The translations under genes and the position numbers were made by a program. From Acidobacteriaceae bacterium (GTDB taxonomy: Bacteria; Acidobacteriota; Terriglobia; Terriglobales; Acidobacteriaceae): a DNA stretch of 64,000 nt. This document shows positions 23,124-63,461 of this stretch, in pieces. The stretch lies in NCBI GenBank assembly GCA_025356095.1, contig JANXUR010000064.1, positions 1 to 64,000 on the forward strand. The letters are read 5' to 3'. Under the pieces are notes generated by a model. The model worked only from the letters and a program-made list of their open reading frames with translations, did not search any database and was not told the DNA's origin. The first letter of the stretch is position 1, and each line of letters starts with the position of its first letter.

Positions 23124-24536
23124 CTAGCGCCCGGCAGATGTACGCTGCACACGCGGGTCCGGTTCCGACGTCAGCCCATGTTGCTTCATCTTCTGTAACA
23201 GTTCGCGATAGCTTAAACCTAGTTGCTCGGCAGCCACCCGCCGGTTCCAACGAGAATCTTCCAGCGCCCGTGCCAGACGAACTGCCTCGCTGGCATCCTG
23301 AGCAAAAGGCTTTGCCACGCCACCTTCTGTCAGGCCGCCGACAGCCGCACTTTGCCCTGCCGAAGTCAGTCCGCGAATCTCGCGCAGCGCACTCTCTTCA
23401 TCGCCCAGCACCAAATAGCGCTTCACAAAATTCCCCAGCTCACGCAGATTCCCCGGCCAGGAATACTCGTGGCAGGCCACCAGCATGGCGGGCGATACCG
23501 GCAATATGGGTCGCCCCAGCCGCTCTGCCGAACGCACCATAAAATGCTTCAGCAGCAGCGGAATCTCTTCTTTACGCTCACGCAGTGGCGGAATCTGCAA
23601 TGTCAAAGCACTCAGTCGGTAGTAGAGGTCCGCGCGCAGTTGCCGGTTTTGCAGCGACGACTGCACGTCAATATTGGTCGCAGCCAACACCCGCGCATCG
23701 CACTTCAACTGCGTGCGTCCCCCCAGCCGGCTAAAAGTGCCATCCTGCAACACGTGCAGCAGCTTGGCCTGTAACTGCGGCGGCATCTCGCCGATTTCAT
23801 CTAAGAAAAATGTACCCTTCTGGCATTGCTCGAATTTGCCGGGCTTGGCCTGCACCGCGCCGGTAAAGGCACCCGCTTCATAGCCAAACAGCTCGCTTTC
23901 CAGCAACTCAGCGGGGACAGCAGCGCAGTTCACTTTCAGAAACGGCTTGCCTGCCCGCGATGAGAGCTTGTGGATCAAGTGCGCCGTCACCTCTTTGCCG
24001 GTGCCGCTTTCCCCCAGAAGCAAAACCGGAACATCCACCAGCGCCATCCGTCCGGCTTGTTCACGCAGCTTGCGCGTGGCATCACTCGCCGCCAGAAAAT
24101 AGAGATCGTCGGTTAGCTCTTCCACCGTCTCAATCGGCCCTTGTGGCTTCTCTTGTGCCATGGCGATCACCGCATCCAGATCCGGCTTACGGAAGGGTTT
24201 GGTGACGTAGTCGAATGCACCCAACTTCATGGCTGCTACCACCTGATGCGTGTCACTCACGCCCGTCAACATCACTACTTTTACTGCCGGAAAATCGCGC
24301 CGCGTCTCAGCCAGTGTCACCATGCCGTCGCGCTCGGGCATCATCATATCGAGCAGCATCAGGTGGGGCTTCAGCCCGCCTCGCAGCAGCGCCAGTGCTT
24401 CCTCGCCGCTCACCGCCGTGGACACTCGATGCCCATCCAGCTCCAGCAGCGTGTGGATGTAGCGCAGCATGGCCGCGTCATCATCTACGGCCAGAATACG
24501 CAGCGGCTCGGCGTGGGGTAGAAACACAGTTTTCAT
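23124..24536 (-). CDS. Sigma-54-dependent response regulator (NtrC type)
   Basis: 470 aa from ATG 24536, whose ATGA overlaps the stop of the upstream kinase gene. Receiver domain about residues 10-125 (ILAVDDDAAML, phospho-acceptor Asp in LMLLDMMMPERDG, Lys in VTKPFRKPD). AAA+ domain about 150-385 with Walker A GESGTGKE, the sigma-54 contact loop GAFTGA, Walker B FFLDEIGEMP and WPGNLREL. A Fis-type helix-turn-helix ends the protein (NRRVAAEQLGLSYRELLQKMKQHG). It is probably phosphorylated by the neighbouring kinase and activates RNA polymerase with sigma-54 at unknown promoters. Confidence 0.93.
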   Translation of the reverse strand: MKTVFLPHAEPLRILAVDDDAAMLRYIHTLLELDGHRVSTAVSGEEALALLRGGLKPHLMLLDMMMPERDGMVTLAETRRDFPAVKVVMLTGVSDTHQVVAAMKLGAFDYVTKPFRKPDLDAVIAMAQEKPQGPIETVEELTDDLYFLAASDATRKLREQAGRMALVDVPVLLLGESGTGKEVTAHLIHKLSSRAGKPFLKVNCAAVPAELLESELFGYEAGAFTGAVQAKPGKFEQCQKGTFFLDEIGEMPPQLQAKLLHVLQDGTFSRLGGRTQLKCDARVLAATNIDVQSSLQNRQLRADLYYRLSALTLQIPPLRERKEEIPLLLKHFMVRSAERLGRPILPVSPAMLVACHEYSWPGNLRELGNFVKRYLVLGDEESALREIRGLTSAGQSAAVGGLTEGGVAKPFAQDASEAVRLARALEDSRWNRRVAAEQLGLSYRELLQKMKQHGLTSEPDPRVQRTSAGR

Positions 24537-25459
24537 AGAGGACTCGGGCGCGAACGCAGTCCGGAGTCGGTCTTGCCCCCTGGAGTTTGCACAGGCAGTA
24601 GGAAGTGGAAGTTGCACCCCGCGCCCAATTCGCTTTCCACCCAGATTTTTCCACCACAGGCATGAATCAGCCGCCGCGCAATGGAAAGCCCCAGTCCGGT
24701 GCCGTCCGCCGTCTGGCTGGCTTCCGGCAGACGAAAAAATTCGTCGAAAATTTCCAGATGATACTCCGCTGCAATCCCCGGCCCATTGTCCGTCACCCGC
24801 ACCCGTACGGCATTCGGACCCTCAAAGTGGCGCCTGCGACGTTCGTTCTCTGCCAACTGCGTGGCGTCGAATTCCCGGCCCGGCTCCGGGTTTGCGCGCC
24901 GCCGTTCCCAGCGATATAGCTCCGCCTGCACCGTGACCGAGCCGCCAGCGGGCACGTACTTGGTCGCATTCTCCAGCAGATTCGAAACCACGCGCTGCAC
25001 TTTGTTGTTATCGAGCGGAAATGGCGGCAAACTGGCATTGCGCACGTGGTAGAGCGCAATGCCTCGCTCGCGGAATCGCGGCTCCCAAAGTGCGCACATC
25101 TCCTGCAATGACGTACCAATATCGCCCATCGCAAAGCGGCACTGCATCGTGCCCGCCTCCAGTGCGCCCAGCGTCAAAAAATCTTCCACCAGCAACTGCA
25201 GGCGCTGACCTTGTTGCTGCATCTGCTCCAGCACACTGCGCTGCCGTGAAGAAATCAGCCCGATCCTCTCCGTCAGCAACAGGTCGGTATAACCTGCCAC
25301 CACGCCTAGCGGCGACTTCAAATCGTGCGCAATGGAGGCCATTGCCGCGCACAATCGTTCGTGGCGAAACTCCGCCGCCGCCAGTTGGGGTTCCAATCCT
25401 CTTTGCTCGCCCGCCAAGTTGCCCGTCACTTCGCCCGTTACAGTCCTCATATCTTGCAC
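24533..25459 (-). CDS. Cytoplasmic sensor histidine kinase
   Basis: 308 aa from GTG 25459; ATG 25450 is equally possible and neither has a strong ribosome site. There is no membrane span and no recognisable sensor domain. The N-terminal about 35 residues look helical, then the dimerisation H-box SIAHDLKSPLGVV carries the phospho-acceptor His. The ATPase part has the N-box (RVVSNLLENATKYVP), G1 (DNGPGIAAEY) and G2 (GTGLGLSIARRL). It is cotranscribed and translationally coupled with the NtrC-type regulator. The signal may come from a partner protein. Confidence 0.9.
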   Translation of the reverse strand: MQDMRTVTGEVTGNLAGEQRGLEPQLAAAEFRHERLCAAMASIAHDLKSPLGVVAGYTDLLLTERIGLISSRQRSVLEQMQQQGQRLQLLVEDFLTLGALEAGTMQCRFAMGDIGTSLQEMCALWEPRFRERGIALYHVRNASLPPFPLDNNKVQRVVSNLLENATKYVPAGGSVTVQAELYRWERRRANPEPGREFDATQLAENERRRRHFEGPNAVRVRVTDNGPGIAAEYHLEIFDEFFRLPEASQTADGTGLGLSIARRLIHACGGKIWVESELGAGCNFHFLLPVQTPGGKTDSGLRSRPSPL

Positions 25460-25608
25460 ACCAATAGTTCCAGACTACGTGCGCGGATGGCATTGCGCAG
25501 CCTGCCGAAAGGGAATTCCCGTTCGTAACCCATTACCTTCGGGCACTTGCACCCCGCTTCATCGTCATCCCTGCTAATGTTCATGCAGCTTCCGCCGAAG
25601 ACATCTTT

Positions 25609-26697
25609 GTGACTCTCCGCCGTGCCCCTGATTCCGCCCCAGCACTGCCGCCTGCTGAAGTATTGTTCGGCAACACGGCGGCGATGGCTCGCTTGCGCGA
25701 CCGACTGCATCGCGCTGCCGCCAGCACCGTGCCCGTACTTATTCAAGGCGAAAGCGGCACCGGCAAAGACTTGCTGGCCCGACTGATTCATGCACAGTCA
25801 CCGGTAGCAGGCGGGCGCTTTGTCCGCGTAAGCTGCCCGGCCATTCCCGGCAATTTGATGGAAAGTGAGCTCTTCGGCTACGAAAAAGGCGCGTTTACCG
25901 GAGCCACCACCAACAAACCCGGCCGCATCGAACTGGCCCACCATGGCACCCTCTTCCTCGACGAGATTGCCGAACTTGATCCACCCTTGCAAGCCAAGCT
26001 GCTGCACTTGTTGCAGGATGGCTGTTTCTCTCCCATTGGCGGGGAACAGGAATTGCAGGTGGACGCGCGCATCCTCGCCACCACCAATCGCACCATTGCC
26101 GACGTAGTTGCCAGCGGCGCCTTACGTCAGGATTTGCTCTACCGCATTGGCGTGGTCACACTTACCGTGCCGCCGTTGCGCGAACGTGTGGAAGATCTGC
26201 CTGCGCTGGTCGCCTACTTTCTCGACTGCTATCGTGCAACGCTGCAGAGCCACTCAAGTTCTTTGGGTGCAGAATCGCGCCCGGAACGTATGCTCTCCGC
26301 AAGCACCATGTCGGCGATGCGCAACTATGCTTGGCCGGGCAACATTCGCGAGCTGGAAAATTTGATCCAGCGCTACCTCATTCTTGGCGACGAATCCGTC
26401 ATCCTTTCTGGACTGAGCAGTGGAGCGCCCGCTTACCCGCTGCAAGACCTTCCTCTGGATGGCTCCGTACCCCTGAAGGTCGTAACCCAGCGTGCCATTA
26501 AAGAGATTGAACGCCGCGTGATTCTCGCCGTCCTCCACCAGCATCGCTGGAACCGCAAGAAGGCCGCCGCAACGCTCGACATCAGCTACCGCGCACTGCT
26601 CTACAAGATTCGCGAACTGGGCGTACCCGCCCGCAGCCGCCGCACCCCTGTGCCACTTCCGCTGAAGCTCCGTGCTGCCCACGTCACTCAGCCCTAG
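25609..26697 (+). CDS. Sigma-54 activator lacking a receiver domain
   Basis: 362 aa from GTG 25609, the first start in this frame; the ribosome site is weak, so the exact start is uncertain. Residues about 20-255 are a complete AAA+ sigma-54 activator domain (LFGNTAAMARL, GESGTGKDLLARL, GAFTGA in GYEKGAFTGATTN, FLDEIAELDPPLQ, WPGNIRELENL). A Fis-type helix-turn-helix follows (NRKKAAATLDISYRALLYKIRELG). There is no receiver or other input domain, so control must come from expression level or partner proteins. It is divergent from the kinase-regulator operon with 149 bp between, and closely resembles the AAA+ and DNA-binding parts of that regulator. Confidence 0.9.
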   Translation: MTLRRAPDSAPALPPAEVLFGNTAAMARLRDRLHRAAASTVPVLIQGESGTGKDLLARLIHAQSPVAGGRFVRVSCPAIPGNLMESELFGYEKGAFTGATTNKPGRIELAHHGTLFLDEIAELDPPLQAKLLHLLQDGCFSPIGGEQELQVDARILATTNRTIADVVASGALRQDLLYRIGVVTLTVPPLRERVEDLPALVAYFLDCYRATLQSHSSSLGAESRPERMLSASTMSAMRNYAWPGNIRELENLIQRYLILGDESVILSGLSSGAPAYPLQDLPLDGSVPLKVVTQRAIKEIERRVILAVLHQHRWNRKKAAATLDISYRALLYKIRELGVPARSRRTPVPLPLKLRAAHVTQP

Positions 26698-34025: not shown

Positions 34026-36473
34026 CTACAGTTTCGGGTGGTTCACAAAGAAGTTCCAGGCAATGTCAATGCTGTTGTTCCCCACTTGATTGGTGCCGTC
34101 AGGATTGTCTACAAAGTTGGGATTGTAGGGCGCAGTCGCACTGCCGGGGAATACGTTCAGCTTGACGCTGGAGGAATAAAAGCGATGCGTGCCGGCGTCG
34201 AGCCGGTAGGCGACCACGTCCGCACCATTGTTGCAATTGCCCGCCGTCTTGCCTTGTACGGAGAGTGGCGAGGGCACGCCTGCGGTGCACAAGGTTTGCG
34301 GTTCAATCTGGGTGCAAGCATTCGCCGCCGCCCAGTAATTGAAGCTGTCGTCAATGGAAGCAGACGTACCACTACTATCGTGCTCCCCGCAGTATGGCAC
34401 CGTCAGGTCGGCATCGCCATTCAGAATGACGACGGCCACTGGGTTGTTTCCTGCCGGCTGTGGCACCGTAGTGCCGGTGGCACCCGCAACCGACTCCCAC
34501 AGGTCGCCCTCAAACGCAGCGATCGCGGCGATGCGATCTGCTAAGTCAATCGCGGCACGATGCGACATGTAAGCACCTGAGGAAAATCCGGTCACGTAAA
34601 CCTTTTTTCCGCCAGGAAACAGATTTCCTTCGATGTGGTCAATCAACTGCTGCAGGAAGGTGGAATCATCTGGTGGTGTGCCGGTGAAAGCGGGGCTGAA
34701 GTAGTCAGCCCACTGCGTGGAGCCAGTCGAACTAGCGGCTTCCGCTTGCGGAAACACCGCCAAAAACCCAACCGCATCAGCTTTTTCCACCCAGCCAGTG
34801 GTCAGTCCTTCACTATCGGTGCCGCCAGAGCCGTGCAGGTAGTACACCGCCCCATTGCCATTGAGCGCCACGTAGTTTGCCGGAATGTGTATTCGGAAGG
34901 TGCGGCCCTCCAGACCCTGACCGTCGCGGTAGGTCAACGTACACTCCTGCGTCGTGCCCAAGGCGGAGTTATTGCCACTAAGGCTGAAGTTGCAGGTGCT
35001 GGTTGCGGCGGATGAAGTGATGGTGGCGCTTACGCTGGAAGAGGCTGTCCCACCGTTCGTATCTGTGACGCTTAGCGTCACGGTGTAACTGCCCGTTCTG
35101 GGATAGTTGTGCTTCACGAATTCCGAGGGTGCGTCTGGCGTACTATCGCCAAAGTGCCAGTCATAGGTAAGAACGCCATCGGCGACAAAACTCTTGGAGG
35201 CGGAACCGTCGAACGCGAGATCACTGCCGGCGTTGCCCGCATAAGGGCCGCCGGGATCGGCCGTCGGCAGGCTCACAATGGTTGCGGTGGTCTGGCTAGC
35301 ACTGGCACCACCCGCGCTGTTGGTCGCGGTAAGTTTGACGATGTAGCTGCCAGAGGTGGCGTAAATGTGACTGGGCTTCGTCCCTACCCCAGTGCTGCTA
35401 TCGCCGAAATCCCACGCATAGGTGAGTGCGAGACCGGATGGGTCGCTGGATTTCGAGCCATCTAAATTCACATTCAAGCCAACATCCTGCGAATACGGAC
35501 CGCCAGCGTTCGCCACCGGCAAGGCAGAAACGGTCGCCATCACAGCCGTCGCGGCGCTGCTGCCGAGATTCGAGTCAGTCACGGTGAGGCTGACCGAATA
35601 GACCCCCGCCTTGGCAAAGCTATGGCTCGGCCCAACACCCGAGGCGGATGAACCATCCCCAAAACTCCAAGCGTAAGTAAGAGCCAAACCCGCGCCGCTA
35701 CTCGATTTAGAGCCGTCGAACTGGATGGCCGCTAACGCGGGGGCCGCATAGGGCCCGCCGGGGTTCGCAACCGGCAGAGGCGAAATCACCACGATGCCTG
35801 CGCTGGGAGCACTCGTCGCCTGATTCGCATCGGTAATGGTCAAGCTGATGTTGTAGGTGCCGGGCGCGGTGTATGCGTGCGCTGGCATTGCTCCGGTTCC
35901 GGTCGCGCCATCTCCGAAATTCCAAGCGAAGGCCAACGCTCCCGAGCCCCCGGTAGATTGCGATGAGTTGAGCGTAAGGCTTTGCCCTACGTCTGCTGCA
36001 TAGGGGCCACCTGCGTTCGCGACCGGCAGAGGTGAAATGGTGACAGTGGCTTGTGCCGAGGGGCTGCTGATTCCCTTGGAGTTGATCACGGTCAAGCTGA
36101 CGCTAAAGGGGCCTGGGGTGCTATACGCGTGCGTCGGTTTTACACCCGTGCCCACCGCTCCATCCCCAAAATTCCACGTATAAGTGAGGGCAAGGCTGGC
36201 AGGGTCGCTGGATTTCGAGCCATCGAAGGTGATGGTTTGGGTGGCGTCAGCCGCGTACGGCCCGCCTGCAACCGCTATGGGGCGCTGTCCCGGAGGAGGA
36301 AGAGTCTGCGTTCCGCCGCCGCCGCCGCAGCCAGCAAACACCAACAGCAGCCCCATTCCCATCAGGCCGACCAGCCCGTGGAGACGGCTGCTAGGATTTT
36401 TCCGCTGAACCTTCAAGAGCAAGTGCGTTGGCAACTGTGATCGCAAAAGAATTCTCCGAAACCCGCGCCCCAT
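34026..36473 (-). CDS. Lipoprotein with five PKD domains and a C-terminal esterase/PHB-depolymerase domain
   Basis: 815 aa. The N-terminus carries a lipobox (LLLVFAGCGG, near residue 50); the start at 36473 is uncertain because the leader is long, and a start within about 40 residues is possible. Five PKD repeats (each PVANAGGPY, then FDGSKSSDP, then TYxWxFGDG) fill about residues 65-490. Residues about 495-815 form an LpqC-type alpha/beta hydrolase (COG3509-like): YYLHGSGGTDSEG, the nucleophile in VTGFSSGAYMSHRAA and VILNGDADLTVPYCG. It is probably an outer-surface polymer or ester hydrolase. The catalytic part is paralogous to the next gene. Confidence 0.85.
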   Translation of the reverse strand: MGRGFRRILLRSQLPTHLLLKVQRKNPSSRLHGLVGLMGMGLLLVFAGCGGGGGTQTLPPPGQRPIAVAGGPYAADATQTITFDGSKSSDPASLALTYTWNFGDGAVGTGVKPTHAYSTPGPFSVSLTVINSKGISSPSAQATVTISPLPVANAGGPYAADVGQSLTLNSSQSTGGSGALAFAWNFGDGATGTGAMPAHAYTAPGTYNISLTITDANQATSAPSAGIVVISPLPVANPGGPYAAPALAAIQFDGSKSSSGAGLALTYAWSFGDGSSASGVGPSHSFAKAGVYSVSLTVTDSNLGSSAATAVMATVSALPVANAGGPYSQDVGLNVNLDGSKSSDPSGLALTYAWDFGDSSTGVGTKPSHIYATSGSYIVKLTATNSAGGASASQTTATIVSLPTADPGGPYAGNAGSDLAFDGSASKSFVADGVLTYDWHFGDSTPDAPSEFVKHNYPRTGSYTVTLSVTDTNGGTASSSVSATITSSAATSTCNFSLSGNNSALGTTQECTLTYRDGQGLEGRTFRIHIPANYVALNGNGAVYYLHGSGGTDSEGLTTGWVEKADAVGFLAVFPQAEAASSTGSTQWADYFSPAFTGTPPDDSTFLQQLIDHIEGNLFPGGKKVYVTGFSSGAYMSHRAAIDLADRIAAIAAFEGDLWESVAGATGTTVPQPAGNNPVAVVILNGDADLTVPYCGEHDSSGTSASIDDSFNYWAAANACTQIEPQTLCTAGVPSPLSVQGKTAGNCNNGADVVAYRLDAGTHRFYSSSVKLNVFPGSATAPYNPNFVDNPDGTNQVGNNSIDIAWNFFVNHPKL

Positions 36474-36572: not shown

Positions 36573-37730
36573 TTAGTTCGCGTGCTTGGCGTGGCCTTGG
36601 AAGAACGTCCAGCAAATATCCACGGTGTTGACCCCGGTGCCCACCGTGAAGTTTGGGTTATACGGCAAGAAAGATGTTCCTGGCGAGATGTTGAGCGGAA
36701 TCGGTGTGCCCAAGGGGATGCCCTGAGGGAATCCAAACGTCGGTGTGCTCAAGCCGTAGTATTGGTGGGTGCCCTGATGCAGTTGATAGGCGACCACTTC
36801 GGTGGTCTGCAAGCAGGAAGACCCTCTGCGGGTGGTGATCGAGGTCTGTACGCCGTTGCCGTCGCAAAATGCATTCGGGTTGCTGCCTGCCGTCGGGGTC
36901 AACGTGGCGCAAGAATTTGCTTTCGCGCTGGTCCAGTAGGCGAACGTCGCATCCACCGAAGACGAAAGCCCCGCACTGTCATTCTGTCCACAGTACAAAA
37001 CGCTAGAATCTTGATCGCCATTCAGCAGCAGCACCGAGACCGGACCCTTTGCTGAGCCGACTTGCGTGGTGGACTGAGCAGCCGCTTCCATTAGCGCTCC
37101 AGACACCGACGCAATCGCTGCGATCTGTGGCGAAAGCTCCACCGCCAGCCGATGCGCCATATAGCCGCCGGAAGAAAATCCGGTCACATAAATGTGTTGC
37201 GCGTTGAGCGAGAGCGGCGTGGCCTCAAAGTACGTGATCAGTGTGCTGAGGAAGGTCACATCGTCGGGCGGGTTGTTCAGGCCGGGGCTAAAGTAGTCCG
37301 CCCAGGTGTTTCCACCTTGCGGGCCCACAGGCTCCGCTTGCGGATACACCGCAACAAAGCCGATACTCTCCGACTTCTGCGACCAACCCGTGCCTTCGCC
37401 TTCCGCGTCAGTGCCGCCCGCGCCATGCAGATAAATCACCAGACCCTGCGCCGCCACAAAGTTCACCGGAATGTGCAGCATCATCGTACGAGTCCGCTGG
37501 CCCTTGGAGTCCGTATAAGAGAACGTGCACTCCTGCGAAAGTCCGCGCAGCGAGAAGTTGCATGTACTGGTGACCGCTGGCGGGGGTGGAGTGGTCGTCG
37601 TCGTCGTGCTGGAGCCGCCGCAAGAAGCGAGCAAGGCGGCGAGCGCGGACAAGGCGAACAGGCTCACCAGCCGGGTGACACGCGATACCAGAGGCACACG
37701 GCGCAAGATCAAGAAGCTCAACAAGCTCAA
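36573..37730 (-). CDS. Lipoprotein esterase of the PHB-depolymerase/LpqC family
   Basis: 385 aa from TTG 37730, which has GGAG six bases upstream; the frame can be extended to 37793 or shortened to GTG 37697. The signal ends in a lipobox (ALAALLASCGG) followed by a Thr/Pro linker. The hydrolase has VIYLHGAGGTDAEGEG as oxyanion region, nucleophile VTGFSSGGYMAHRLA, and LLLNGDQDSSVLYCG near the acid residue. It shares order and motifs with the C-terminal domain of the adjacent PKD protein but lacks PKD repeats, so the two look like a tandem duplication with gain or loss of PKD modules. Confidence 0.85.
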   Translation of the reverse strand: MSLLSFLILRRVPLVSRVTRLVSLFALSALAALLASCGGSSTTTTTTPPPPAVTSTCNFSLRGLSQECTFSYTDSKGQRTRTMMLHIPVNFVAAQGLVIYLHGAGGTDAEGEGTGWSQKSESIGFVAVYPQAEPVGPQGGNTWADYFSPGLNNPPDDVTFLSTLITYFEATPLSLNAQHIYVTGFSSGGYMAHRLAVELSPQIAAIASVSGALMEAAAQSTTQVGSAKGPVSVLLLNGDQDSSVLYCGQNDSAGLSSSVDATFAYWTSAKANSCATLTPTAGSNPNAFCDGNGVQTSITTRRGSSCLQTTEVVAYQLHQGTHQYYGLSTPTFGFPQGIPLGTPIPLNISPGTSFLPYNPNFTVGTGVNTVDICWTFFQGHAKHAN

Positions 37731-38206
37731 AGAAAACTCCACAACTGCAAGAATAGGGCTGAGCGAAACGCCGCCGGGTCTACCGAAATCCAAGGCGATT
37801 TTAATTGGGATGCGCTGAACCGCTAAAAACGTTGTCCCGGTGGCCAGCTACCCTGGCATCGTGGTGCCCAGTACTCGATCTATTGTTCGCGAGTCGTCGC
37901 TGCACGTCAAGCAATCTTCTAATAATGCAGTGGAGTGGACGCGGCGTTCTCGCCGGTCATTCGCGCTCGCTCGCTGATTATCGCGTAAGAATTTCCCGGT
38001 GAGGTACTTCCTGCTCGACCCTTGCAGAGATTTTGGCCAGCCACTTGCTTCGCAAATCGCCACTCATTCTCCGCTCTTCCTCTTTCGTTCCAGCTACATA
38101 CCGCGCTCAGGTGTATCGCAATCGCATTCCGGCCCGCAACGTGCAACGCGGCAGGGCAAGAGTGTCATCCAAGTGTCACCCTCGTTGCAAAGGAGAAGCC
38201 ATTCGT
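37731..38206. other. 476-bp divergent region upstream of the first LuxR-type pair
   Basis: Carries the control regions for the esterase (minus) and the first small HTH pair (plus). TAATAAT near 37919 is a possible -10. AGTGTCATCC and AGTGTCACCC form a direct repeat just before the ribosome site at 38192. No RNA gene recognised; the plus frame running in from 38033 has no ribosome site. Confidence 0.4.
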
Positions 38207-38467
38207 ATGACCCCAACGCCGGAACCGATCCGCCTCGGCCCCCGCGAAAAGCAGATTGTCTCGCTGCTTTTGCAGGGATGCGCCAACGATGACATCGCCC
38301 GCAGTCTCAACATTGCGCGCCGCACCGTTAAGGCTCACTTTAACCGCATGTTCGCACGCTTTGGCATTAAAGATGGCATCAAGCGAGTCAAGCTCGCAAT
38401 CTTCATGTACCGGAGGGAAAGATGGCTCAATCGGCAGCGGCAGGCCATGCTAACGAACGGGAACTAG
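38207..38467 (+). CDS. Stand-alone LuxR/GerE-type HTH protein, pair 1 member A
   Basis: 86 aa from ATG 38207, with AGGAG upstream. Nearly the whole protein is one GerE helix-turn-helix: LGPREKQIVSLLLQGCANDDIARSL, represented by GPREKQIVSLL and the recognition helix ARRTVKAHFNRMF, then FGIKDGIKRVKLAIFM. No receiver, PAS or ligand domain. The next gene overlaps by 46 bases. It is paralogous to 41496-41735, sharing RTVKxH and GIxDGxKRVKLA. It presumably binds DNA as a dimer, perhaps with member B. Confidence 0.85.
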   Translation: MTPTPEPIRLGPREKQIVSLLLQGCANDDIARSLNIARRTVKAHFNRMFARFGIKDGIKRVKLAIFMYRRERWLNRQRQAMLTNGN

Positions 38468-38643
38468 AAATCATCGCGTTGGTTGCCGAGGGGTTGAAAA
38501 ACTCAGATATTGCCGGCCACCTGGGCACGAGTGAGCACGTAGTAAAAAACCAGTTGCGCTCCATTTACGATAAGTTGGGAATGTGGAACCGGGTCGAACT
38601 CGCCTTGTGGTATGAATCGCGGCGGGAGTTAGGCATCGCCTAA
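38422..38643 (+). CDS. Stand-alone LuxR/GerE-type HTH protein, pair 1 member B
   Basis: 73 aa, with CGGAGG upstream inside the previous gene. A single GerE-type domain: LEIIALVAEGLKNSDIAGHL, then SEHVVKNQLRSIYDKLG and MWNRVELALWY. It differs from member A in the recognition helix (SEHVVKN against RRTVKAH). The paralogue is the second gene of pair 2 (41714), which shares SExVVKNxLRSIxDKxGxWxRxELA. The 46-base overlap suggests coupled translation and fixed stoichiometry. Confidence 0.85.
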   Translation: MAQSAAAGHANERELEIIALVAEGLKNSDIAGHLGTSEHVVKNQLRSIYDKLGMWNRVELALWYESRRELGIA

Positions 38644-38663
38644 TCGTTGTCTCTGCTGCTGGC

Positions 38664-39500
38664 CTATTGGCAGCCGGAATCGCTCCACTGCTTTAGTTGA
38701 GCACCGGCTGCCTCTACTCCCCGCTTGGCGGCGGAATCCAGCAAAATCTTGGCCTGTTCGCAGTTTTTGGCTACGCCCTCCCCCCGTGCGTACAATTCCG
38801 CCAGCGCCATCTCTGCCGTGGTATTGCGCGCCGCCACCGCCTTCCATAACCACTTGGCCCCTTCTGCACTGTTCTTGGGAACTCCATCTCCAGTTAAATA
38901 CTGCCGACCCGTGCGCAGTTCTTTGTCGCCGGGGCCGTCGGGAACTGCCGCAGCCAAAGCCTGACTTCCACTGGTTGCGGCTGTGTCTGGAGCGGGTGGC
39001 TTAATTTTTGGGCTCCGGGTCGCCGGTGGTGGGCGGAGTGCATTCACTTGCTTGCCGATCGCATCCGGCACCACTGCGCGTGTTCCCAATGGTGCCGCAT
39101 TGCGGGCATTCTGCGTGGTGGTCGCCATACCAGCCGCCGAGTTCACGCGCGGATTGCTTTCGGCTGCTGGTGCCGCTGATGTTGGCTGGGGCGTGGTCGT
39201 GCGCGAAGGTGATAGCAGTGGAGATGCTTCTTTCTTTAGCGGAACAGACATTGCACTTTGCGCTACCCCCACCGCCGTCGCCGTCGCCGTCTGTGCACGA
39301 TAGGCTCGCAAACTCTTTATGCCGAAGTGCACCCCAGCCCAAGCCACCACGACTACAAGCAACAGCAGCGCTAGCGACGTCTTTGCTGGCGCTTGCCTCC
39401 GGACAGCCAGAGCATGGGTGCCCGCACCCGCTACTTGCGACCGCAGTTGTTCCACCTCATCCCGGTGATCGCCTTCGATGCCATCGCGCAGCCAGCTCAT
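38664..39500 (-). CDS. Membrane-anchored Sel1-repeat protein
   Basis: 278 aa. An N-terminal cytoplasmic part (about 1-38) is followed by one membrane span (TSLALLLLVVVVAWAGVHFG). A long Pro/Ala/Thr-rich low-complexity stretch comes next (about 65-185), then two Sel1-like TPR repeats (LRTGRQYLTGDGVPKNSAEG, here GRQYLTGDGVPKN; and ELYARGEGVAKNCEQA). Sel1 repeats mediate protein contacts. It lies 40 bases downstream of the GAF gene in the same direction and converges on the first LuxR pair, 20 bases apart. Confidence 0.8.
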   Translation of the reverse strand: MSWLRDGIEGDHRDEVEQLRSQVAGAGTHALAVRRQAPAKTSLALLLLVVVVAWAGVHFGIKSLRAYRAQTATATAVGVAQSAMSVPLKKEASPLLSPSRTTTPQPTSAAPAAESNPRVNSAAGMATTTQNARNAAPLGTRAVVPDAIGKQVNALRPPPATRSPKIKPPAPDTAATSGSQALAAAVPDGPGDKELRTGRQYLTGDGVPKNSAEGAKWLWKAVAARNTTAEMALAELYARGEGVAKNCEQAKILLDSAAKRGVEAAGAQLKQWSDSGCQ

Positions 39501-39540
39501 CGCTGCCTCCTGCTACCGCGCCAGTTGCGTGCTGCCGCCG

Positions 39541-40821
39541 CTACGGGCATGGTTCCCCTCGGGCGGACTCATAATGTGCCAACTGTGCGTCCCGCTGCCG
39601 CAACGTAAAGCCGAGGCCGTGGCCATCTTCTTTGCCACCGCAGTAGTATTCCCCTTGCGATAGACCCACCCACACCAGCGCCTGAGGATTGCCTGTCGTG
39701 CGTTCCGGCATCACCGGAGGCGGTACCAGCGCCAACGTCGAATCCGAAATGCCGCCCAGCGCGCCCAGCCACTCCTCGCTGCCGTTGGTCCAGCCCAGCG
39801 CCGCTGCCAGCTCGAATCCCATTGCCGCCAAAAATATCGCCGTCGCCAGCAGAATGATGATGTTGGCCCGATTCGTCCGCCATTGCCTTGTCAGCCAGCC
39901 CGAGCCATCGGCAGCAGCCAGATTCTCGTCCGCCGGGACTGCTTGCTCCGTTACCGCCGACGAAGTGGGCGTCCCATCCCCTGTAACTGGATTGGCTGTG
40001 GTTACCGCAAGGGTTGTGGATTCTGCCAAATCCTGGCGAATCGGCTCCGTCACTTCAGCGTGCAACAGCGCGTCGCTGGTAGCGCGGCCCTCGCTGCCGG
40101 GCTGTTGCTGCTGGCTGAAATCACGCCTCGATCCGTGCATCTGTTGCGCTGCCGCCCATGCGGCAATGTCTTCCGCTTCCACCACCACCGGCTCCCAGCG
40201 GTCAGCTGCCAGACACTCGGTCGTCACCGCCGCAGCCTCGGCACAGCACGCCACTGCCTCCGGGGAGAAAGCATCGCCGCGCTCGGCCACAACCTCCCAT
40301 GCTCCGACGACCGCTCCGGCATTTCCAATCGGCATCAGCACCAGCGACCGCGCACCCCGCAACTGGCACAGCATGTGGTCGAGTCGCTGGTCGCCGCTGG
40401 TTTCCGCGCTCACCACGGCGTCCCCGCCAGAAATCATGCCATGAAACAGCGTCGCCTCCGGACGCACCCTCATGCCATATAAGGCACGACTTAGCCCTGT
40501 GGCCGCGTGGTACAGCACGTCGCTGCCCTCGATTAGCCCCGCCGCTACTCCATCGGCTTCGGTGCTGCGTTGCAAGTGCAGCGCGATCAGGTCGAAAGCT
40601 TCTTCCAGATCAATCTCATTCTTCTGGATCATGGCGGGAAGGTCACCAATCAGCGCGCGCAACTGTGCCGGCGTCACCGCCAACGGCAGGTCGTCGGATG
40701 CTTCCGCAGAAGTATCCACTGCCGCTTCCAGCGCCGTCGCACTTTCGTCACGCTGGAGCACAAACGCGCTCTCGATCAGCTTCTGCAGTTGCTCCCGTCC
40801 GAGTTGTAGGGGTTGGCTCAT
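39541..40821 (-). CDS. GAF-domain protein with C-terminal membrane segment
   Basis: 426 aa. The first 80 residues are helical and acidic. Residues about 85-205 look like a GAF domain (DLIALHLQRSTEADGVAAGL, then ARSLVLMPIGNAGAVVGAWEV, then FSPEAVACCAEAAAVT). After a polar linker there is one membrane span (IIILLATAIFLAAMGFELAA) and a short tail with VWVGLSQGEYYCGG. The GAF part may sense a small molecule. It is probably cotranscribed with the Sel1 gene, and the two lie between the paralogous LuxR pairs. Confidence 0.72.
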   Translation of the reverse strand: MSQPLQLGREQLQKLIESAFVLQRDESATALEAAVDTSAEASDDLPLAVTPAQLRALIGDLPAMIQKNEIDLEEAFDLIALHLQRSTEADGVAAGLIEGSDVLYHAATGLSRALYGMRVRPEATLFHGMISGGDAVVSAETSGDQRLDHMLCQLRGARSLVLMPIGNAGAVVGAWEVVAERGDAFSPEAVACCAEAAAVTTECLAADRWEPVVVEAEDIAAWAAAQQMHGSRRDFSQQQQPGSEGRATSDALLHAEVTEPIRQDLAESTTLAVTTANPVTGDGTPTSSAVTEQAVPADENLAAADGSGWLTRQWRTNRANIIILLATAIFLAAMGFELAAALGWTNGSEEWLGALGGISDSTLALVPPPVMPERTTGNPQALVWVGLSQGEYYCGGKEDGHGLGFTLRQRDAQLAHYESARGEPCP

Positions 40822-40890
40822 GGTTCAGTAAGTGGTCGGTAAATTGTTGGGGAACCATGCGAGATTATCGCTCGCCGATCGCTGGCCTCT

Positions 40891-40912
40891 TCCGGGATTC
40901 GTCCGGGATTCG
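40891..40912. repeat. Two exact 11-bp tandem repeats
   Basis: TCCGGGATTCG twice in a row, about 70-90 bases upstream of the GAF gene start, where promoter elements would be expected. It could be a pair of helically phased binding sites. Confidence 0.7.
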
Positions 40913-41148
40913 TCCTAGCTTGATACAAGCATATTCAAATTCCGTATCAGCAGCATCGCACCGAAGCCGCAATCAGAGCAACCCGGAAGTGAAATTTCTT
41001 CCAGCCAGAAGGACGCACCTTGCTCGTGAGTAGCCAGCGTGAACCCAAGGCAAGCAGTCTGCGAGCCTTGAATGGTTGCGCTAGCCGCCGAAGACGGATG
41101 CCAGCATTCTCACTGAACTGTTGGCAAAGCTTTGGCGACGCCTTGGCA

Positions 41149-41181
41149 AACTCGTAACGGACTCGCAACGAACTCGCAAGC
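41149..41181. repeat. Three 11-bp tandem repeats
   Basis: AACTCGTAACG, GACTCGCAACG and AACTCGCAAGC in direct succession in the middle of the divergent region. Unit length matches one helical turn. Confidence 0.7.
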
Positions 41182-41424
41182 AGCTCCCAATGAGTTCTTT
41201 AAGACGCTGGATGATTCGGGGCAAGAACGGGGATACGGGCAGACAATACGGGCATCGCCGCCCACATCGGGAACGAAAAACGGCCCAAAACGGGAATTCT
41301 CAGAGCTTTCTAAGGGGCATACCCATCCGTGACCTATGACTAACCTCATTGTTTTCAACAAAACCGCACCCTCACAAAGGTTTGGCGAAACTCTTGCAAG
41401 GTATTAGTCCAGTCGTGCAGTCAG

Positions 41425-41437
41425 GGGTACGGTACCC
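41425..41437. promoter_or_regulatory. Dyad GGGTAC-G-GTACCC before LuxR pair 2
   Basis: Perfect 6-bp arms around one base, 59 bases before the pair 2 ATG. It is a candidate operator, possibly for the HTH proteins themselves; no equivalent was found upstream of pair 1. Confidence 0.35.
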
Positions 41438-41495
41438 GGCAACGGTTGCCTAGCCTCAAACCTAGCCGGTTCGCCGGCCACAGGAGCTAAGTCGC

Positions 41496-41735
41496 ATGGT
41501 GGACCTGAACGAAGTCAAGATCACTCCCCGCGACGAGCAGGTGTTGAAACTGCTCGTACTCGGTTGCAGCAACAATGAGATCGCTCTCGAGCTGAAGATT
41601 AGCCCGCGGACGGTCAAACAACATTTGCGCACGCTCTTTCTGCGTGCCGGAATCCGTGACGGCCGCAAACGCGTCAAGCTGGCCACGGCAATGTTTATGA
41701 AGGAGAGAGCACAATGGCCCCTCGGAACCAACTAA
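41496..41735 (+). CDS. Stand-alone LuxR/GerE-type HTH protein, pair 2 member A
   Basis: 79 aa, with AGGAG nine bases upstream. One GerE domain: ITPRDEQVLKLLVLGCSNNE, then LKISPRTVKQHLRTLF and AGIRDGRKRVKLATAMF. It is clearly paralogous to 38207-38467. It overlaps the next gene by 22 bases. There is no input domain. Confidence 0.85.
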   Translation: MVDLNEVKITPRDEQVLKLLVLGCSNNEIALELKISPRTVKQHLRTLFLRAGIRDGRKRVKLATAMFMKERAQWPLGTN

Positions 41736-42055
41736 CGCGCAAAGAAGCTCAGGTGGCGACCTTGGTGTGGCAGGGTCTTACCAACAAAGAAGTCGCCCTG
41801 ACCATCCACACTTCTGAACAGGTGGTGAAAAATTACCTGCGCAGCATCTTCGACAAGATTGGGGTATGGAGCCGCTTGGAGCTGGCCATGTATGTGGCTC
41901 AGCACGGGGGTGACAACTGGCTGCTGGAAAGTCCGCATGCGCCGCTAGCAGCCATTCTGCCCGCCGCTCTGCCGTCGCAGTTGACGAACGGCGGCGTAGC
42001 AGAACTGCCCACCTTGGCCGAAGAGGCTGCCCGCTCCCGCGCAGCGGGAGTGTAG
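41714..42055 (+). CDS. Stand-alone LuxR/GerE-type HTH protein, pair 2 member B
   Basis: 113 aa, with AGGAG eight bases upstream. The GerE domain occupies residues about 5-65 (LTRKEAQVATLVWQGLTNKE, then SEQVVKNYLRSIFDKIGVWSR). A C-terminal Ala/Pro-rich tail of about 45 residues is absent from the pair 1 partner. A strong stem-loop follows the stop. Confidence 0.85.
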   Translation: MAPRNQLTRKEAQVATLVWQGLTNKEVALTIHTSEQVVKNYLRSIFDKIGVWSRLELAMYVAQHGGDNWLLESPHAPLAAILPAALPSQLTNGGVAELPTLAEEAARSRAAGV

Positions 42056-61527: not shown

Positions 61528-62430
61528 ATGACTATGGCAAGCAAACGCGGCCCGAAATCCCGCATTGAGATCGCTGCACCGGCTATCACTCGAGTTTTCA
61601 CAGCCGCTGGGGAAAGTATTTATTGGCCATCCGACATAGCAGCGCTCCTTAGAGAAAAGCGCGCAGAGTGGAACCTGCCTCAAGACTTCGACCCGCGGAG
61701 GTTTATTGATTTTCTTCTCGAGAATGGGTCGCTCCAAGAACTCCGACTCTCTGCGGCTAACCACCCAAACCTGCCAAACGTAGTTCGATACGCTTCGGGA
61801 TCCCCAACGCCGCTTCAGATTGCACTCTCGATCCGGAGAAAGTCGTTCTTGTGTCACGGAACTGCGGTTTTTCTCCACGCTTTGGGCGACGAATTGCCCA
61901 AGACGATTTTTGTCAACAGTGAACAGAGTGACAAGCCTTGGGCGAAAGGCACCCTTAGTCAGGAGGGAGTTCACCGCGCATTTCGGGGCAAGCAGCGCCA
62001 GTCAACTCTCGTGTACCCTAATCTTGATTCTCGGATTGTCATGATCGCGGGTAAGCATTCCGGGAATTTGGAAGTCGGGGCCGTGCAGTTCGGCACCGAA
62101 CGACTCTCTGTCACCAAGCTGGAACGGACGCTGATTGACATCGTCGTTCGGCCAGCATACTCGGGCGGCGTCTATCAGGTTCTGAAAGCTTACCAACGGG
62201 CACAAGACCGATTGTCCGTTCCGACACTCCTAGCGACCCTCAAGAGGCTGGACTATGCATATCCCTACCATCAGGCCATCGGCTTTTACATGAAGCGCGC
62301 CGGCTACCAACCTGCGCAGTACGAACGTTTGAAGGGTCTGGGGCTGAACTACGACTTTTATTTGGCCCACGACTTGCGCGAACGAGAATACGACTCAGAG
62401 TGGCGACTCTTCTACCCAAAGGGATTTTAG
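61528..62430 (+). CDS. abiEi: AbiEi-family antitoxin / transcriptional regulator
   Basis: 300 aa from ATG 61528, with GGAGAAGGG directly upstream inside a palindrome. It belongs to the type IV antitoxin AbiEi family: an N-terminal winged-helix region (about 10-95, [31 protein letters not shown]) followed by the antitoxin domain ([55 protein letters not shown]). AbiEi proteins repress their own promoter by binding inverted repeats and counteract the AbiEii nucleotidyltransferase. Unusually, the AbiEii partner is on the opposite strand, and the 3' ends overlap by 36 bases. GC appears lower than in the surrounding genes, suggesting transfer. Confidence 0.85.
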
Positions 62431-63261
62431 ACGTTCGATCTGGCTCAGCACGTAGTCGAAGTAAAAATCGTATTCGTTCAGCTCTGTCTTGACGCTTGCG
62501 ATGACTGCAGGCCAGTCGGGCCGATGGAATTCGCGGTAGTTGCGGATCAAACTGAGAAGTTGCAAAGGCACCTGCTTGACAGCAAAGATGCTCCTGGCCA
62601 AAGCCAGATTTTCGGGGCTCGCGATATCAACCCCTCCTTCGGTTAAGATCAAATGGACGTCGTAAAAATCGCGGGCTCTCGGGTTGCCACGTGGCTTTAT
62701 CACATAGTCGGGCATCTGCTGGCATAGCGCCCTCAACTTTTCAATCACCACCATAGCAAGCGTGTAAACGTAGATCGTGTAATAGTCGAGTTCAACTTTT
62801 ATCTTGCCATCGGTGAACTCATTCTTGCTCATATCCACTCGGAAAACACGCTCCTGATTCGCACCGATAGGCAGGGCATTTATTTGCATCTTCGCGTGTG
62901 TGCCAGATTTAAACTGATTGTACTTTTCGCGCTCAATAACCTTAAAACTCAGCTCATAACCGCCCCACCATGGACGGTTATTGATTCCCTTAATCTTGGG
63001 TTTTTCTTGCAATTTCTCATCGAATACGACCAGCCCTGCAGAATCAAATCGATCCTTTAGAGCATGAAAGATTCTGCCCTCAGCGTCGCTCAAATCAGAC
63101 AGGTCGCCGTCCAGCGAGAAATCAAGATCCAGCGATGACCGAGAGCCAAGCTTGTGAATGAGATTTATTGCATTGCCACCCTTAAGAACAAGCCTTTCCA
63201 TTAGCACCTCATCTGAAAAGAGCGCCACAATCGTAAGCTTCCGAATTTCATCAAAGTCCAT
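62395..63261 (-). CDS. abiEii: AbiEii-family nucleotidyltransferase toxin
   Basis: 288 aa from ATG 63261, with GGAGTGA upstream; the longer frame from GTG-type starts to 63285 is less likely. It has the AbiEii/AbiGii toxin pattern of a pol-beta-like nucleotidyltransferase: [27 protein letters not shown], seen as LKGGNAINL plus the SSLDLDFS catalytic acids, then [10 protein letters not shown] with the conserved Lys and [10 protein letters not shown]. The fold and catalytic residues look intact. It is convergent with abiEi rather than cotranscribed, overlapping its 3' end by 36 bases, and has no palindrome of its own upstream. Low GC. Confidence 0.85.
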
Positions 63262-63461
63262 GGTCACTCCCACCGAGCGGCTCAATCATACGGGCTCGCA
63301 GCGCCCAGTGGAAACAAGCGGAAGGAAGCAATAGTTTTGCGCCCGCTTGCCCGCCCCCGCACCCTGCCCGTACCATACTTGTGGCGACAAAATCTGGATT
63401 CATTCTGTTGGCACCGCTATCGTCATCAGCAGCATCCGCCCCGCAGGAGGCATTTTTTCTT

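Follow-up and report, generated by a model that had tools for sequence, protein, structure and literature searches.

Paired receiver-less GerE-type proteins behind predicted sigma-54 promoters in Acidobacteriaceae

Two gene pairs and the genes between them

The stretch of DNA considered here (the window) comprises 64,000 nucleotides from an Acidobacteriaceae bacterium and carries two modules, each a pair of overlapping genes for very small proteins designated A and B, with two genes on the opposite strand lying between the pairs:

38207..38467, forward strand: A1, 86 aa, GerE domain only (PF00196, 48.9 bits)
38422..38643, forward strand: B1, 73 aa, GerE domain only (PF00196, 45.5 bits), in the -1 frame relative to A1
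38664..39500, reverse strand: Sel1-repeat protein (PF08238, 35.4 bits), transmembrane-like at its N-terminal end; the gene is convergent with module 1
39541..40821, reverse strand: protein with a GAF domain, a membrane-spanning stretch and Cys residues in its C-terminal tail (YYCxG...C)
41496..41735, forward strand: A2, 79 aa, GerE domain only (PF00196, 44.4 bits)
41714..42055, forward strand: B2, 113 aa, GerE domain (PF00196, 48.8 bits) followed by a C-terminal tail modelled at low confidence, in the -1 frame relative to A2

A preliminary description of this locus had proposed four open reading frames that encode little more than a GerE domain, and all four indeed exceed the PF00196 gathering score of 23.5 (range 44.4–48.9 bits), with nothing else recognized in them by Pfam except related HTH families. 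The motifs quoted there, RTVKxH and GIxDGxKRVKLA for A and SExVVKNxLRSIxDKxGxW for B, are exact. Each of the four genes begins with ATG and has its own Shine-Dalgarno-like site, that of B1 (CGGAGGG) lying immediately 5′ of the start codon, and the overlaps measure 46 nt for A1/B1 and 22 nt for A2/B2, with B in the -1 frame both times. A1 and A2 share 49% identity over 65 aa (E 2e-23) and B1 and B2 share 46% over 59 aa (E 3e-18), while BLASTP returned no alignment between A1 and B1. In comparisons of orthologues, purifying selection acts on all four frames (pN/pS 0.12–0.22; A1 0.14, B1 0.12) and the wrong frames give values above 1; together with the conservation of the genes, this excludes the possibility that any of the module reading frames arose by chance.

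A and B are strictly paired and restricted to one family

Searching 61 relatives with A1 and A2 separated the true A genes (at least 98 bits) from nearly all other GerE domains (at most 55 bits), and B followed the true A genes. With a better profile, a count by eye gave about 109 A-positive genomes among the 398 sampled from the family, distributed over roughly 30 of the 79 genera in that sample. Across 396 genomes spanning the phylum it was present in only three, all from the same family as the source, and in no other family among them. Among 84,980 species genomes, the 80 top-scoring loci all belong to Acidobacteriota metagenome-assembled genomes, assigned to Acidobacteriaceae, Ca. Sulfotelmatobacter, “gp1” or Terriglobia. 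The gap in locus scores is wide, with 119–136 bits for A as against 40 or less for everything else.

We examined 134 A genes closely, some of them duplicated between sources, which amount to 120 distinct pairs, including 39 module-1 pairs with A1 orthologues. The expectation that A and B would be found together elsewhere is borne out without exception: B lies directly 3′ of A in all 131 cases in which the contig continues, and the three A genes that appear single each end 2–37 nt from a contig end. The overlap is maintained as well. In module 1 it is always at least 46 nt, and in module 2 it is mostly 4 or 22 nt where B is in the -1 frame and mostly 14 nt where B is in the +1 frame, the 22-nt overlap of A2 and B2 in the window being common to many orthologues. 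Mirror-tree correlations between A and B were 0.78 and 0.45; being uncorrected for shared phylogeny, these values carry no weight here.

Overlapping genes in different frames raise the question of whether a frameshift has broken one larger regulator into these pairs, or programmed frameshifting joins them into one product. The predominance of the -1 frame would fit such an origin, as would the A1 frame, which in 7 of 39 module-1 pairs (e.g., L082, L086 and L071) has no stop anywhere along B1 and encodes a Ser/Thr-rich tail; 0.6 such pairs would be expected from synonymous resampling, a comparison uncorrected for relatedness. Set against this, B has its own start and Shine-Dalgarno-like site (a count that is partly circular, since this site was used in choosing the starts), the A stop codons recur at the same places, the relative frame in module 2 is of two kinds (70 and 10 cases), and not one of the 120 distinct pairs is an A-B fusion. 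With separate starts and stops and overlaps of 4, 22 and 14 nt, the genes are not frameshift fragments, and we regard a split or fused regulator as so improbable that it was rejected.

B1-type genes are also found on their own. One genome (G036) has two additional stand-alone copies without A (L211:1530-1763 and L212:1448-1666) and a normal A1B1 pair elsewhere; B may thus also act alone.

Two ancient modules and their neighbours

A phylogenetic tree unites A1 with A2 in a single clade (100/99) and recovers A2, B1 and B2 each as a monophyletic group. B falls among the ordinary NarL-type regulators of these bacteria, although the few alignment columns leave the deeper branching uncertain. The locus had been described as a duplicated module, and in the sense that A1 and A2, and likewise B1 and B2, are paralogous, that description stands. 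A recent local duplication is ruled out, since modules 1 and 2 are each orthologous across genera; they are two ancient orthologous sets. Carriers usually have both copies. Within the stretches read from three genomes (G004, G010 and G011), module 2 occurs without A1B1 and without the GAF and Sel1 genes.

The GAF and Sel1 genes do lie between the pairs, as had been noted, and in relatives they are linked to module 1: of 38 loci, 34 have the convergent GAF gene no more than 3 kb from module 1 and 26 have Sel1 within 3 kb downstream of it, and at all 30 loci with both modules GAF lies within 9 kb of module 1. The GAF match of the window protein is itself sub-threshold (E 8.5e-4), and an orthologue matches GAF_2 at 8e-13; the membrane-spanning stretches of both proteins were judged by eye. 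From this conserved linkage to module 1, one might guess that GAF is a sensor and Sel1 an adaptor.

A further neighbour is seen in other genomes, where a small conserved gene of about 130 aa lies some 400 nt 3′ of module 2 in 53 of 62 loci (for example, L073:7601-8047). Its product carries the motifs KETFWMACDS, HTRCATCGE and EVWADIHEFEH, and matches no Pfam family above cut-off and no NCBIfam family. In one sample of relatives, the gene was present in seven A-positive genomes and one A-negative genome (G003); it is absent from the window's genome.

Predicted sigma-54 promoters

An unbiased k-mer search of the DNA 5′ of A1 and A2 picked out TGGCA-N7-TGCTA and TTTGGCGAA-N5-TGCTT, a result that in sequence terms is GG-N10-GC, the -24/-12 signature of sigma-54. 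These putative promoters and the conserved gene 3′ of module 2 go beyond what the preliminary description contained. In the window, the predicted elements are:

38034..38049, forward strand: predicted sigma-54 promoter of module 1, TGGCCAGCCACTTGCT (GG-N10-GC), the best PWM site 5′ of A1
41383..41398, forward strand: predicted sigma-54 promoter of module 2, TGGCGAAACTCTTGCA (GG-N10-GC), PWM score 13.2–13.5
41374..41389, forward strand: degenerate copy (2 mismatches) of the module-2 direct repeat GCGAA-N6-GCGAA, overlapping the -24 element

Counted within 160 nt upstream and compared with expectations from shuffles, sigma-54-type sites precede A1 in 39 of 39 cases (1.7 expected) and A2 in 73 of 80 (2.6 expected), and they are also enriched 5′ of the ~130-aa downstream gene (61 of 74, with 4.5 expected) and 5′ of GAF (23 of 66, with 3.2 expected). 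Before the other neighbours tested they occur at about the level of chance, and they are rare within the A-B coding sequence. No site above chance precedes Sel1 (0 of 33 by the strict pattern). At L073, the ~130-aa gene has a sigma-54-like promoter of its own, CGGCATTCGAATTGCA. The window's genome encodes rpoN (Sigma54_DBD, E 8.2e-60), so that both marks of a sigma-54 transcription unit, the conserved upstream GG-N10-GC and the sigma factor, are found, and sigma-54 RNA polymerase appears to drive both modules.

Two side observations concern these upstream regions. In G027 (L073:3887-6662), about 2.8 kb of DNA with three ORFs, as if inserted, separates A2 from its module-2 sigma-54 promoter on the 5′ side. 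Upstream of Sel1 orthologues (e.g., L086, L145 and L147) there is a strongly conserved TTGACAACC-N12-AGTGCAATCATA, found at 24 loci, that has the look of a sigma-70-type promoter.

The promoter of module 2 has an additional feature in that its -24 box sits inside the direct repeat GCGAA-N6-GCGAA, with an upstream GCGAA at exactly 11 bp in 42 of 72 anchored promoters. The repeat may itself belong to the sigma-54 promoter. Close matches to the complete direct-repeat promoter are almost confined to module 2: those with zero or one mismatch occur only there (counting the displaced G027 promoter 2.8 kb from A2), bar one in G011, and sites with two mismatches are mostly near the level of reversed controls. 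A wide regulon defined by this promoter was rejected on these counts.

Sigma-54 polymerase would need an activator, for which the window offers candidates some distance upstream of module 1, all identified by Pfam:

23124..24617, reverse strand: NtrC-type sigma-54 response regulator, candidate upstream activator
24533..25459, reverse strand: histidine kinase
25609..26697, forward strand: second sigma-54 activator, candidate upstream activator

A homologous trio of regulator, kinase and activator lies about 2–5 kb from module 2 in G004 (L088), and we infer from this a candidate link between the window trio (23124-26697) and the control of A and B. Orthologues of EBP1, a candidate for a dedicated activator, were present with 58–62% identity in all eight A-positive relatives sampled, and also in G003 and G017, which do not have A, along a continuous scale of identity.

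How A differs from B

The difference between A and B at the recognition helix that had been noticed in the window is fixed in both modules, and the same holds for the dimer helix; here, we take the DNA-contacting and dimer helices to correspond to those established for NarL and GerE. Between the two modules the recognition helix hardly changes in B (VVKNYLR) but does so in A (KAHFNR vs. KQHLRT). From the G-I of the turn after the recognition helix to the R-V of the dimer helix there are 5 residues in 119 of 119 matched A proteins and 2 residues in 116 of 116 matched B proteins, such that A is longer than B by exactly three residues just ahead of the dimer helix, with few exceptions to the A/B pattern. 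Within the dimer helix, one position is K or R in 114 of 119 A proteins and E in 116 of 116 B proteins. A Cys in the motif QGC.N is present in 120 of 120 A proteins.

AlphaFold models, which are of monomers only, gave a mean pLDDT of 81 for A and above 90 for the core of B, the last helix of the domain being 16 residues long in A and 10 in B. The A2 and B2 models match the structures of the DNA-binding domains of NarL, LiaR and GerE.

Taken with the co-occurrence, the gene overlap and the fact that A is never seen without B, this exchange of charge makes an A-B heterodimer the favoured arrangement, and an obligate dimer that reads asymmetric sites, as first suggested for the window, is likewise favoured on these sequence patterns. 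A less probable explanation, though one deserving some weight, is that A and B are independent homodimeric regulators that merely share an operon, their co-occurrence being a consequence of shared control. In its favour, GerE-only proteins that function by themselves are known, G036 carries orphan B1 genes, and B retains the canonical NarL-type dimer helix RxELA; moreover, the E in B does not forbid homodimers, since ordinary NarL-type regulators of these bacteria have E at the same position. However, such independence would not lead one to expect that A is never without B in 131 testable cases, that the coupling overlap is maintained in both modules, or that the dimer helix of A is changed in a fixed way in both.

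It is also conceivable, with a distinctly lower probability, that A titrates B or the reverse, making the pair a couple of activator and antagonist and not a DNA-binding heterodimer. The three-residue insertion ahead of the dimer helix of A and the altered charge on that helix could serve such a purpose, as could the A1 tails that in some relatives extend far over B1, but the recognition helix of A (RTVK[AQ]H) is full and strongly conserved in both modules, and the A model superposes on the DNA-bound domains of NarL and LiaR.

Relation to known GerE-type regulators

Almost all LuxR/NarL-type regulators possess a sensing domain, and most of them work as homodimers. A and B belong to the PF00196 GerE/LuxR-NarL superfamily by both profile and matched structures (NarL, LiaR, GerE). 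By Pfam, their ORFs have HTH families only, with neither the receiver domain of NarL/FixJ response regulators nor the autoinducer-binding domain of quorum-sensing LuxR proteins and LuxR solos.

A close parallel in architecture is GerE of Bacillus subtilis, which like A and B consists of the DNA-binding domain only and whose structure (1FSE) matches the predicted A/B fold. GerE is a single protein without the three-residue insertion of A, whereas A and B are two divergent types, always paired, behind sigma-54-type promoters. PedR (NF052366, a 74-position model) is another stand-alone GerE-type protein and the best NCBIfam match to B1 (45.5 bits), although the module proteins, at 30.4–45.5 bits, fall far under the curated family cut-off of 120. 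It is encoded by a single gene in cyanobacteria, and we know of no paired partner for it. PedR is controlled through thioredoxin (PMC4361706), and the invariant Cys of A makes A a candidate for redox control.

For heterodimers, there is the precedent of BldM and WhiI in Streptomyces, two GerE/NarL-type proteins that together bind a non-palindromic site (PMC4125116). These are atypical response regulators of actinobacteria that possess a receiver, whereas A and B are receiver-less and encoded by adjacent genes, and a comparable A-B heterodimer is suggested indirectly by the strict pairing and the charge swap. In enterobacteria, RcsB forms LuxR/GerE-type heterodimers with RcsA, BglJ or GadE on asymmetric boxes. 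Unlike A and B, RcsB is a phosphorelay response regulator, and the proteins it pairs with are larger and lack the coupled gene arrangement. Searches of open-access literature turned up no account of paired proteins of this kind from Acidobacteria. A and B are a family-restricted variant of stand-alone GerE regulators, for which a mechanism can be inferred.

A proposed mechanism

Our main reading, to which we give a probability of roughly 60%, is that each module is a receiver-less GerE/NarL-type pair that is co-expressed from a sigma-54 promoter by way of overlapping genes and most likely works as an A-B heterodimer. A sigma-54 activator, answering some signal, would switch on A and B together, and the overlap of the genes would yield similar amounts of the two proteins, which would then pair through their last helix. 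B would contribute a nearly constant recognition helix and A a module-specific one, and the pair would bind an asymmetric site without phosphorylation input, such that activity would be set by sigma-54-dependent synthesis and not by a receiver domain. Module 2 may also control its own promoter through the GCGAA-N6-GCGAA repeat over the -24 box, and the ~130-aa downstream gene of other genomes and the GAF and Sel1 membrane proteins may be partners or targets of the circuit.

A fuller version is more tentative, and we put it at somewhat short of even odds: a dedicated class of receiver-less GerE heterodimers in which sigma-54 sets the amount and A-B pairing through the charge-swapped, lengthened dimer helix sets the specificity, with B shared and A module-specific. 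Two modules per cell would then form a small combinatorial switch, and module 2 would regulate itself at a direct-repeat operator that covers its -24 box.

The arrangement suggests a small two-part genetic switch. With two subunit types, no sensor domain and sigma-54-type promoters in front of its genes, a conserved pair of this kind would illustrate how signal input can shift from the receiver to the choice of promoter. The pair also marks dozens of mostly uncultured genera of soil acidobacteria, in which regulation is almost unknown, and proteins of 70–110 aa are small enough for binding, structural and two-hybrid work.

Other loci in the window

Near the end of the window, an AbiEii nucleotidyltransferase gene (PF08843, E 2e-23) and a 300-aa ORF are convergent and overlap slightly (61528-62430, forward strand, and 62395-63285, reverse strand). 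The 300-aa ORF has no Pfam match and looks AbiEi-like by eye, and the two are probably a type IV toxin-antitoxin pair in an unusual convergent order. Upstream of module 1, two adjacent and related genes for secreted esterase-like proteins lie on the reverse strand (34026-36473 and 36573-37793), the second with an Abhydrolase_2 domain and the first with PKD-like repeats before its catalytic part.
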